A stretch of DNA of 64,000 nt from Marine Group II euryarchaeote MED-G38 (GTDB lineage: Archaea > Thermoplasmatota > Poseidoniia > Poseidoniales > Thalassarchaeaceae). The DNA lies in assembly GCA_002457145.1 (NCBI GenBank), contig NTJP01000005.1, forward strand, positions 43,255 to 107,254, read 5' to 3'. The notes under the pieces are model-generated. The model was not told the DNA's origin, ran no database searches, and was given only the letters and a program-made list of their open reading frames with translations. Made by a program: the position numbers and the translations under genes. Below are positions 5,820 through 9,063 of this stretch, piece after piece; position 1 is the first letter of the stretch, and each line of letters starts with the position of its first letter.

Positions 5820-6119
5820 ATGGAAACACTAATATGTCGTTTTGAAAAATTAGAAAATATCAAATCTGAAGTATTGGATAATGAAATTATGTTTCTGGCT
5901 GATACCTTAGAGATGTTAAGAATAACAGATGAAATATCTAACGATGCATTCTTAGATGCTGGTATGATACAAGGTGGATTATCGATAATATCTAATCTAT
6001 TATCTCAAGGCCTTAATCCAGAAGATGTTCGAAACCAAATAAATAGATTAAAACAAAAAAGTATTGCATTATCAAAAACTTATCCAGAATTAGATAAATT
6101 GATTGAAGAAAGAAGATAA
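5820..6119 (+). CDS. small helical hypothetical protein
   Basis: Function unknown. The 99-residue product is predicted by eye to be all-helical, acidic and without Cys or membrane segments; the C-terminal half has a QINRLKQKSIALSKTYPEL helix that could be a coiled coil. It starts at ATG 5820, 39 bp after mce, and its TAA stop is also the first bases of the 11-bp repeat array upstream of the preQ0 operon. It is probably the last gene of the kae1-mcm-mce run. No family recognised. Confidence 0.65.
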   Translation: METLICRFEKLENIKSEVLDNEIMFLADTLEMLRITDEISNDAFLDAGMIQGGLSIISNLLSQGLNPEDVRNQINRLKQKSIALSKTYPELDKLIEERR

Positions 6120-6183: not shown

Positions 6184-6357
6184 ATGCCTAAAGTTAGTTT
6201 AGATATGCCTCAACAAATTATTGAGGACCTAAGAAAACATGTTGGAGACGATAGGAAATATGTAAGTTTGGCGGATGCCATTAGAACAGGTTGTAGAAAA
6301 TTGTTAGATCAATTGGATGAAATTGACGCACGTCATGGGAGGATTGAGAATGAATAA
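6184..6357 (+). CDS. ribbon-helix-helix (CopG/Arc-type) DNA-binding protein
   Basis: A 57-residue ORF below the cutoff of the supplied track. It reads MPKVSLDMPQQIIEDLRKHV, then a YVSLADAIRTGCRKLLDQLDEI helix pair. This is the RHH layout: an N-terminal strand with alternating residues (KVSLD), a first helix, a V/S turn and a second helix. There is no Shine-Dalgarno before ATG 6184 and a TATA-like sequence lies about 25 bp upstream, so the transcript may be leaderless. The stop overlaps the folE start by 8 bp, so it heads the preQ0 operon. Likely role: autoregulation and control of the folE-queE-queC-queD genes through the repeat array just upstream (inference). Confidence 0.8.
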   Translation: MPKVSLDMPQQIIEDLRKHVGDDRKYVSLADAIRTGCRKLLDQLDEIDARHGRIENE

Positions 6358-6925
6358 TATAGGACGAAAAGAAGCTGAATCTGCAATTAAGACTTTACTG
6401 AAATACTTAGAAGATGACTTTAATAGAGAAGGACTAAAAGAAACTCCTAAAAGAGTCATAGATTCATTTGATGAGATATTTGCTGGTTACCAGCAACGAC
6501 CATCAGAGGTTTTAGCATCAACGTTTAATGCAGAAGGTTACGATGGAATCGTTCTTCTGAGAGATATTGAATTTTATTCTACATGTGAACATCATTTACA
6601 ACCATTTAGCGGTCGAGCACATATTGCTTACATACCCACAGATAGAATTGTTGGGATCAGTAAATTAGCAAGGATTGTAGAATTATACGCGAGAAGATTA
6701 CAGAATCAAGAAAGAATAACAATATCTATTGTAGATGATATTGTTGAAAATTTAAATCCATTAGGAGCAGGGGTGATATTAGAAGCAAGACACGGATGTA
6801 TGCAATGTCGTGGCGTATCCAAACAAAATGCTGTTATGACAACCAGTGCTATGAGAGGGGTATTTTTCGAAGATTCTGGGGCCCGTTCTGAATTAATGCA
6901 ATTAATCAGGAGTAGGGAACTGTGA
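6350..6925 (+). CDS. folE: GTP cyclohydrolase I (type IA)
   Basis: Converts GTP to 7,8-dihydroneopterin triphosphate, here the first step toward preQ0 and possibly also folate. The zinc site is visible as CEHHLQPFSG (Cys and His) and HGCMQCRG (second Cys). The family motif VGISKLARIVELYARRLQ is intact. The track extends upstream to 6317, but ATG 6350 has a GGGAGGA Shine-Dalgarno at good spacing and matches the family N-terminus, giving 191 residues. It overlaps the RHH gene upstream and queE downstream (GTGA). Most archaea use MptA or a type IB enzyme, so a type IA protein points to transfer from bacteria or a bacterial-like pathway. Confidence 0.95.
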   Translation: MNNIGRKEAESAIKTLLKYLEDDFNREGLKETPKRVIDSFDEIFAGYQQRPSEVLASTFNAEGYDGIVLLRDIEFYSTCEHHLQPFSGRAHIAYIPTDRIVGISKLARIVELYARRLQNQERITISIVDDIVENLNPLGAGVILEARHGCMQCRGVSKQNAVMTTSAMRGVFFEDSGARSELMQLIRSREL

Positions 6926-7518
6926 GCACCTACCCCATTGTTGAGATATTTCACTCAGTTCAAGGTGAAGCATTTCATACTGGGGTTCCACATGTATTTA
7001 TCAGATTTGGTAACTGTAATTTAAGATGTGAATGGTGTGATACAGACTTTCTAACATTTCATGAAATGTCGTTAGAACAAATAATCAATCAAGTAGTATC
7101 ATACAATTGTAAAAGAGTTATTTTTACAGGTGGAGAACCTTGTATGCAGGATTTGAATACAATAGGTAAAGAATTAAAGAAATATGATATTCATCTCTCT
7201 GTCGAAACCAACGGAACTATAAGAGTCCCAAATATCATAGATTGGATTTGCGTCTCTCCAAAAGATCAAATTTATCCAAATGTGAATATTGAACAACGTA
7301 CTGGAGACGAATTAAAGGTTGTTTATTGTGGACAAGATCTTTCAATTTATGATGATATTAAAAAAGGATTCAAACATCATTACATACAACCTTGTTACAT
7401 AGAGAACGATAGTATTGAATCGAATGGAAGAAGTTTTAGTATAGTTGAAAAAGTGGTAAAGTCTAATCCGGGATGGAGACTATCATTACAAACTCATAAA
7501 TGGATGGGAGTTGATTGA
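6922..7518 (+). CDS. queE: 7-carboxy-7-deazaguanine synthase (radical SAM)
   Basis: Radical SAM enzyme that contracts 6-carboxytetrahydropterin to 7-carboxy-7-deazaguanine (CDG). The N-terminus has VEIFHSVQGEAFHTG and the cluster motif CNLRCEWCDT (CxxxCxxC), followed by IFTGGEPCMQ and SVETNGT. The GTG start at 6922 overlaps the folE stop by 4 bp. At 198 residues it is a typical short QueE. The next gene starts directly after the stop. Position between folE and queC leaves little doubt about its role in preQ0 synthesis. Confidence 0.95.
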   Translation: MSTYPIVEIFHSVQGEAFHTGVPHVFIRFGNCNLRCEWCDTDFLTFHEMSLEQIINQVVSYNCKRVIFTGGEPCMQDLNTIGKELKKYDIHLSVETNGTIRVPNIIDWICVSPKDQIYPNVNIEQRTGDELKVVYCGQDLSIYDDIKKGFKHHYIQPCYIENDSIESNGRSFSIVEKVVKSNPGWRLSLQTHKWMGVD

Positions 7519-8607
7519 ATGAGAGTAGTTATGGCATTAAGCGGAGGAATGGATTCTACAGGGCTATTACTACGTCTTTTATCAGATGGATATAAAGTGA
7601 CATGTTTAATATATGATTATGGTCAAAAGCATATTATAGAAATTGAAAGGGCTCTTCAGAATTTAACTTATATAAATAATAACGGGATCAAAGTAGACCA
7701 TAAAGTAGTAAATCTATCTAGTGTAATGGGATTATTTCATTCATCATTAATTAAAAATAATGAAGAAATTCCTGAAGGCCACTATGAGGAAGAACAAATG
7801 AAATCAACAGTTGTGCCAAATAGGAATGCGATTTTCGCCTCAATTTTGTATGGTTATGCGTTGAGTATTGGATTAAAAGAAGATACTAATGTAAAAATAG
7901 CATTAGGAGTTCACTCAGGAGACCACGTTATATATCCAGATTGCAGACCAGAGTTTTATGAGTTATTAGAACAAGCCTTTGCAAAAGGCAATTGGAACTC
8001 CGAAAAAGTTTCTTTGCACTTGCCTTATATTGATGGAAATAAAGAAACAATATTAAGGGATTCTATCAATTCATGTAGAAAATTAAGACTTGATTTTGAT
8101 ACTGTTTTTGCTAATACGAATACCTCTTATAACCCTGATTCTAATGGTAGATCTTCGGGCACTAGTGGTGCCGATATTGAAAGAATACTAGCATTCTATT
8201 CTATTGGTAAGAAAGACCCAGTGGAATATGTAAAGCCATGGGAAAATGTATTATCTGAAGCTTTAAAAACTAAATTAAGATATAATGTAATGAAAGAAAA
8301 TGGAACCGAGCAGCCATTCACAGGTGAGTATGATAAACACTTCAAAGAAGGGGTTTATACCTGTTATGATTGTGGTAAGAAATTATTTTCATCTAAATCT
8401 AAATTTGATTCCGGATGTGGCTGGCCAGCATTTTCTGAAGAATTTGATAATGCAGGTATAATAAAAATAAATGATAATTCCTATGGAATGAATAGAATTG
8501 AAGTAAGATGTAGTGGATGTGAATCACATTTAGGCCATCTTTTCCATGAATCAAAAGGTCCAAGATATTGCATAAATTCTATATGTTTAAAATTCGAGGG
8601 AAAGTAA
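7519..8607 (+). CDS. queC: QueC-MsrB fusion: preQ0 synthase domain plus methionine-(R)-sulfoxide reductase
   Basis: A single 362-residue reading frame with two enzymes. Residues 1 to about 235 are 7-cyano-7-deazaguanine synthase: ATP pyrophosphatase loop ALSGGMDSTG, VVPNRNAIFASI and a C-terminal DPVEY. The usual Cys motif of QueC is aligned but replaced: Ser203, Ser213, Ser216 and Asp219 sit where the four zinc Cys are normally found. Residues about 250-362 are MsrB: GTEQPFTGEYDKHF, zinc pairs CYDC and CSGC, FDSGCGWPAF and the catalytic RYCINS (Cys351). The fusion junction lies exactly where QueC normally ends. It sits between queE and queD, so the QueC half is expected to be functional; whether it still uses zinc is open. 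Confidence 0.9.
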   Translation: MRVVMALSGGMDSTGLLLRLLSDGYKVTCLIYDYGQKHIIEIERALQNLTYINNNGIKVDHKVVNLSSVMGLFHSSLIKNNEEIPEGHYEEEQMKSTVVPNRNAIFASILYGYALSIGLKEDTNVKIALGVHSGDHVIYPDCRPEFYELLEQAFAKGNWNSEKVSLHLPYIDGNKETILRDSINSCRKLRLDFDTVFANTNTSYNPDSNGRSSGTSGADIERILAFYSIGKKDPVEYVKPWENVLSEALKTKLRYNVMKENGTEQPFTGEYDKHFKEGVYTCYDCGKKLFSSKSKFDSGCGWPAFSEEFDNAGIIKINDNSYGMNRIEVRCSGCESHLGHLFHESKGPRYCINSICLKFEGK

Positions 8608-9063
8608 ATGGTAACTAAAATAATGAGATGGGTAGAAACTGATACAGGGCATAGAGTTCCTAATCATAAAAGTAAATGTAGACATTTTCATGGCCATAGA
8701 TATAGATGGGAGGCCGTTATTGAGGGTGATGTTGTTAGTCAAAAAGGTGTTTCTGATGAAGGTATGTTAATGGATTTTTCAGATATTTCAATTATTCTTA
8801 ATACGGAGATACACGACATAGTAGATCATTCATTCTTAGTTTATGAGAATGATTTGGAGGCGCTTAAAGCACTAGAAATATTGGAACCGGGACATAGAAC
8901 CTTGGTATTACCATTCATCCCAACAGCTGAAAACCTAGCCAGATGGGCTTTTGAAAAAGTTGAGAAACATATTAAAAGTTCGTATCAAAACAAGTTAAGG
9001 TTAGTTTCTTTTAATGTTAGAGAAACCCCCAAATCATGGGCTAGTTGGACTCCTGATCTTTAG
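8608..9063 (+). CDS. queD: 6-carboxy-5,6,7,8-tetrahydropterin synthase
   Basis: PTPS-family enzyme that turns dihydroneopterin triphosphate into 6-carboxytetrahydropterin, between FolE and QueE in the preQ0 pathway. Zinc ligands are seen as GHRVPNH and FHGHRYRWE, with the catalytic Cys in KCRHFHGH. Downstream are MDFSDISIIL, a DHSFL segment with the catalytic His, and PTAENLARWAF. At 151 residues it is slightly longer than many QueD. It starts directly after the queC-msrB stop. Its last 23 bp overlap the end of the convergent methyltransferase gene. Confidence 0.95.
   Translation: MVTKIMRWVETDTGHRVPNHKSKCRHFHGHRYRWEAVIEGDVVSQKGVSDEGMLMDFSDISIILNTEIHDIVDHSFLVYENDLEALKALEILEPGHRTLVLPFIPTAENLARWAFEKVEKHIKSSYQNKLRLVSFNVRETPKSWASWTPDL

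Follow-up and report, generated by a model that had tools for sequence, protein, structure and literature searches.

A recurrent QueC–MsrB fusion in the preQ0 operon of Marine Group II archaea, most likely a bifunctional protein without chemical coupling

The window analysed here is a 64,000-nt stretch of contig NTJP01000005.1 (positions 43,255 to 107,254) from the Marine Group II euryarchaeote MED-G38. It contains a gapless preQ0 operon with the order folE-queE-queC=msrB-queD, in which queC and msrB are fused into one gene. The folE gene (6317..6925, + strand) encodes a GTP cyclohydrolase I (PF01227) that scored over the cut-off of the NCBIfam FolE model. It overlaps by 4 bases with queE (6922..7518, +), which encodes a radical SAM 7-carboxy-7-deazaguanine synthase (PF04055) whose best NCBIfam matches were all QueE models, under their cut-offs. 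The fused ORF begins directly 3' of queE and stops directly 5' of queD (8608..9063, +), a 6-carboxytetrahydropterin synthase gene (PF01242; best match TIGR03367, 77.4 bits versus a cut-off of 89.25). These FolE, QueE and QueD neighbours, abutting or overlapping by a few bases, bear out the preQ0 operon proposed in the original prediction, and a folE/queD/queE setting of this kind is one of the marks of a canonical QueC. A 99-aa ORF just 5' of the operon (5820-6119) gave no Pfam match. The window also codes for an archaeal SRP RNA and two archaeal ribosomal proteins, S19e and L31e. A TgtA of the archaeal tRNA-guanine-15 type, over the curated cut-off of TIGR00432, is present, so preQ0 most likely feeds archaeosine. 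Separately, in two TgtA proteins of 720-780 residues (L318, 1393-3558; L323, 1357-3708), the transglycosylase domain is set apart from the C-terminal PUA-like part by a long intervening stretch.

The fused gene (7519..8607, +) is a single frame from ATG to TAA that encodes 362 aa and contains no internal stop and no N. Its QueC-like (7-cyano-7-deazaguanine synthase-like) domain comprises residues 1-245 (7519..8253, +), with a Pfam QueC match (PF06508) at residues 3-227 far over the curated cut-off (E = 1.1e-39). The MsrB domain comprises residues 252-362 (8272..8604, +) as judged by PF01641, TIGR00357 and invariant columns. The SelR/MsrB model PF01641 matched residues 252-360 (E = 1.7e-42; 144.4 bits versus a cut-off of 24.9), TIGR00357 gave 143.3 bits, over its cut-off of 113.05, and both models indicated a complete domain at about residues 247-360. 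This half carries the zinc-binding CxxC pairs C282/C285 and C331/C334, C300, and the catalytic C351 within RYCINS. An AlphaFold model of the fused protein had a mean pLDDT of 84.5 and a pTM of 0.81, and Foldseek matched its halves to MsrB (6qa0) and QueC (2pg3). The two-domain reading of one uninterrupted frame and the placing of the junction at the natural QueC end, both made from the sequence beforehand, were thus upheld by the Pfam domains, their limits and the model. In the model, a single continuous helix (residues 241-259; 8239..8295, +; the short junction type, of constant spacing) leads from the QueC end into MsrB. Because one helix spans the junction, the halves are probably held rigidly. 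The catalytic residues of QueC and MsrB are invariant across an alignment of 38 fused proteins and nearly invariant in 112 QueC domains and 99 MsrB domains of the order. The dN/dS ratio was about 0.03-0.16 in both halves for close pairs with usable dS, indicating strong purifying selection. From these patterns, both halves look active.

A family study lists SGGxDS, YxQxHxxE, VPxRN, YPDC, a zinc-region tyrosine and zinc cysteines as the canonical QueC motifs (PMC13329287, 2026). The window protein contains the ATP/phosphate loop SGGMDS (residues 8-13), YGQKHIIE, VPNRN and YPDC, and the invariant Y204 corresponds to the zinc-region tyrosine of Escherichia coli (Y189). The 38 aligned fused proteins keep all four motifs and the tyrosine; throughout the order, SGGxDS was found in 111, YxQxHxxE in 110, VPxRN in 111 and YPDC in all of 112 QueCs. 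The zinc motif C(x)8CxxCxxC is absent. In the former zinc loop (residues 203-219, SYNPDSNGRSSGTSGAD; 8125..8175, +), alignment to a cysteine-bearing viral relative (TCYQPNEFGESCGRCGSC) placed S, S, S and D at the cysteine positions. With 53% identity across the domain, this relative has NTCYQPNEFGESCGRCGSCNER at the site of NTSYNPDSNGRSSGTSGADIER in the window protein. None of the 112 Poseidoniales QueCs examined had a cysteine in the loop. Because the zinc motif is absent, the protein also falls under the cut-off of the NCBI QueC equivalog TIGR00364 (128.7 versus 150.3 bits). The expectation of an intact QueC therefore stood for the ATP loop and the other catalytic motifs and failed for the zinc site, all four ligand cysteines being replaced. 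As C(x)8CxxCxxC is missing, we file the QueC half outside canonical QueC, as a zinc-less relative that would work like QueC; with the zinc site gone, its activity is less certain than the motifs suggest.

QueC was detected in 123 of 146 genomes of the order (Marine Group II). We examined the locus in 112 genomes: queC and msrB were fused in 59, roughly half of the species sampled, msrB followed directly downstream of queC in its own frame on the same strand in 40, and no msrB was found beside queC in 13; one or two of these 13 sit on contigs that stop short of the expected msrB start. The gene order was folE queE queC msrB queD in fused and split loci alike, and folE queE queC queD where msrB was missing. 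Nine further genomes beyond the 112 gave full-length matches to the fused protein. The fusion was thus seen in many separate assemblies, including that of G002, a genome in one 2.06-Mb contig; it is real and recurrent, no assembly error, and not confined to the present assembly, as the original prediction had allowed. Among the best 80 close relatives, nearly all named public genomes were Euryarchaeota, Poseidoniales, Poseidoniaceae or Thalassarchaeaceae. The genome-contig scan covered these best 80, and unrelated QueC-MsrB fusions may occur elsewhere. Two records named Phycisphaerae (L138) and Deltaproteobacteria (L182) carry queC operons of the Marine Group II type; they are probably mislabelled or contaminated, or else reflect recent transfer.

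The junction, measured in residues from the end of QueC (ERILAF) to the CGWP of MsrB, was exactly 73 residues long in 22 of the 59 fused proteins, including that of the window, and exactly 87 in the other 37. The existence of exactly two lengths indicates a single origin of the fusion, or very few. In approximately unbiased (AU) tests, a single clade of all fused forms was not rejected (p-AU 0.875 for MsrB and 0.693 for QueC). Several independent fusions, for which quick trees gave 7 changes for QueC and 2-4 for MsrB, were consequently not upheld. Each junction type, 14 residues apart, occurs in both families of the order without a strict split by genus, suggesting that the fused gene or its operon moved between genera. 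The simplest history is one fusion and one 14-residue linker change followed by transfer and loss; a second fusion is also possible.

Outside the order, MsrB and QueC matches lay at different loci in 28 other genomes of the phylum, whose QueCs were about 30-40% identical and had the usual zinc motif where the loop was readable. In one Marine Group III genome (G274), QueC was of the Marine Group II type and no msrB accompanied it. We found at least 81 viral relatives of the QueC half (L201 and L238-L317 among the matches listed). The zinc loop was cysteine-less in 79 of these 81 listed matches, only L247 and L252 keeping the cysteines, and no MsrB lay beside any of the 81. Phage and plasmid collections gave QueC relatives alone, at <60% identity. 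We accordingly rejected the idea that the fusion itself came from a virus or plasmid. Marine Group II archaea share a zinc-less loop of the form TNTSYKP...SDYKSASSVERVEAF or TNTSYNPD..GRSSGKSGADVERILAF with many viral contigs of marine origin. The viral contigs L238, L240 and L201, with QueCs about 60% identical to that of the window and the same cysteine-less motif, are probably from Marine Group II viruses with their own deazaguanine genes. Since unfused QueCs and viral relatives share the loss of the zinc site, this loss is independent of MsrB, and we discarded the idea that it was a consequence of the fusion.

A SelR search detected the fusion as the only MsrB of the genome; MsrA lies at a separate locus (genome contig C1, the fusion being on C17). 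Separate msrB genes, whose absence the original prediction proposed to check, are likewise missing from the other genomes with the fusion, with as a rule one SelR match per genome, the fusion itself. With contig-end cases set aside, MsrA was also missing in 11 of the 12 QueC-bearing genomes without MsrB versus 15 of the 108 with MsrB (Fisher p = 7e-8, kinship ignored). On the tree, these co-losses make up two to four independent pairs only, for which the sign test was not significant, and MAG incompleteness inflates gene absences. No MsrB was found in the 23 genomes without QueC; adjacency can explain this, and missing contigs would look alike. The genomes of genus g5 and G017, G122, G069 and G027 had QueC while MsrA and MsrB were undetected; they are possibly marine archaea without peptide methionine sulfoxide reductases. 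In seven genomes (G024, G026, G032, G089, G091, G066 and G074), QueC, QueD and MsrB were undetected and TgtA was kept, which suggests that they salvage preQ0 or have lost the entire operon, or else that contigs are missing from the assemblies. Methionine made up 2.08% of fused QueCs versus 2.41% and 2.47% of unfused ones, which does not support a methionine-rich QueC in need of protection.

The reading that we favour, and regard as likely, is a bifunctional protein in which two independent housekeeping enzymes were merged from neighbouring operon genes without chemical coupling. It rests on the findings that MsrB does not follow QueC and that fused QueCs contain less methionine. The N-terminal half would be a QueC-type enzyme that converts 7-carboxy-7-deazaguanine to preQ0 with ATP and ammonia, and the separate archaeal TgtA would insert preQ0 at tRNA position 15 for archaeosine. 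The C-terminal half would be an ordinary MsrB that draws on an outside thiol reductant to reduce the methionine-R-sulfoxide of proteins, alongside the separate MsrA; as MsrB-less genomes nearly always lack MsrA and keep QueC, it is most likely at its ordinary job. A rigid helix would join the halves, which probably have no substrates in common; we infer both activities and no channelling. In this order, an msrB gene would first have come to lie between queC and queD and later have fused with queC, once or in very few events; a single 14-residue change of the linker would have followed, and the fused gene or its operon seems to have passed from genus to genus. The reason why the fusion persisted we likewise infer: it is most readily seen as a harmless outcome of tight operon packing, possibly kept for equal dosage and as one transferable unit. 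Of the two explanations originally offered, a neutral gene fusion thus fits best.

The other explanation, in which an oxidation-prone step on the way to preQ0 is shielded by MsrB, was not supported. In a broader version, the MsrB half would specifically repair or regulate the enzymes QueE, QueC or TgtA when light and oxygen cause stress, and so tie tRNA modification to redox state. Genes that share an operon throughout an order may be functionally linked, and here msrB adjoins or fuses with queC order-wide, always in the same slot, and was never found without queC. The rigid helical link of the model (pTM 0.81) and two invariant methionines of the QueC half, M11 and M94, also agree with such coupling. 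However, 12 genomes, several of them of one genus, have kept QueC and lack MsrB, the absence of MsrB tracks that of MsrA, and methionine is slightly scarcer in fused QueCs; moreover, queC and msrB lie at different loci outside the order, and no msrB was near the viral relatives among the matches listed. We therefore consider coupling unlikely, and the fusion is most likely no evidence that preQ0 synthesis needs methionine repair. That the fusion is a true functional unit, in which MsrB sustains preQ0 and archaeosine synthesis or senses its redox in sunlit oxic water, on a zinc-less QueC lineage common to marine viruses, we regard as quite improbable.

Three further explanations concern the protein itself. 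The zinc-bearing MsrB half might stand in structurally for the zinc site lost by the QueC half, given that all QueCs of the order lack the four zinc cysteines and MsrB supplies a CxxC/CxxC site. The QueCs of QueC-only and split genomes and of 79 of the 81 listed viral relatives, which have no MsrB, are equally cysteine-less; zinc loss neither needs nor follows fusion, and a structural replacement is very hard to credit. Translation might also begin within the frame, for instance at M255 (VMKENGT), and give MsrB as a product of its own, which would leave the fused frame of little meaning. Many short-linker fusions share this methionine, which stands just ahead of the core of MsrB, but long-linker fusions have VTRE there, without methionine; by eye, no ribosome-binding-like sequence was seen upstream, and the AlphaFold helix passes through M255, so that two products seem improbable. 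Finally, assembly or binning errors, or a frameshift hiding two genes, have a precedent in the same operon: the apparent fusions queE=queC (L107), folE=queE (L149) and msrB=queD (L190) were rejected as products of single N or runs of N in the assemblies. Against 59 genomes, two exact linker lengths, the single contig of G002 and a window frame without stops or N, the likelihood of an artefact here is negligible.

Canonical QueC (PF06508; E. coli and Bacillus subtilis; 2pg3, 3bl5) shares with the fused protein its fold, SGGxDS, YxQxHxxE, VPxRN, YPDC, the Y189 equivalent and the preQ0 operon; the fused protein differs in lacking C(x)8CxxCxxC, in its C-terminal MsrB and in falling under the NCBI equivalog cut-off. 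Compared with MsrB proteins (PF01641/TIGR00357; 6qa0, 6sym), the domain is complete, with the RYCINS catalytic cysteine, C300 before GWP and both CxxC pairs, but here forms the C-terminal half of a QueC fusion. In bifunctional MsrA-MsrB proteins (PilB of Neisseria, 3e0m, 5fa9, 7e43), MsrB is also a domain of a multi-domain protein; their partner repairs the S-sulfoxide, whereas the partner here is an enzyme of nucleobase synthesis and MsrA is encoded elsewhere. QatC and Cap9, repurposed QueC paralogues, share the scaffold but are defence proteins, QatC being without canonical motifs that the window QueC keeps, and no defence genes were seen beside the preQ0 operon.

The original prediction knew of no evident precedent for a link between QueC and MsrB, and this holds: the open-licence papers searched contained no report of a QueC-MsrB fusion and no description of a zinc-less QueC lineage. 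The fusion joins two known enzymes in an architecture that has apparently not been described, in archaea that rank among the most abundant of the surface ocean. As the QueC half scores below the NCBI cut-off for QueC, automatic annotation may name the protein MsrB only. Of the two findings, the zinc-less QueC lineage may be the more interesting. It connects an enzyme of archaeal cells with QueCs from marine viruses that modify their DNA and, if active, would mean that the family-defining zinc site is dispensable for preQ0 synthesis.
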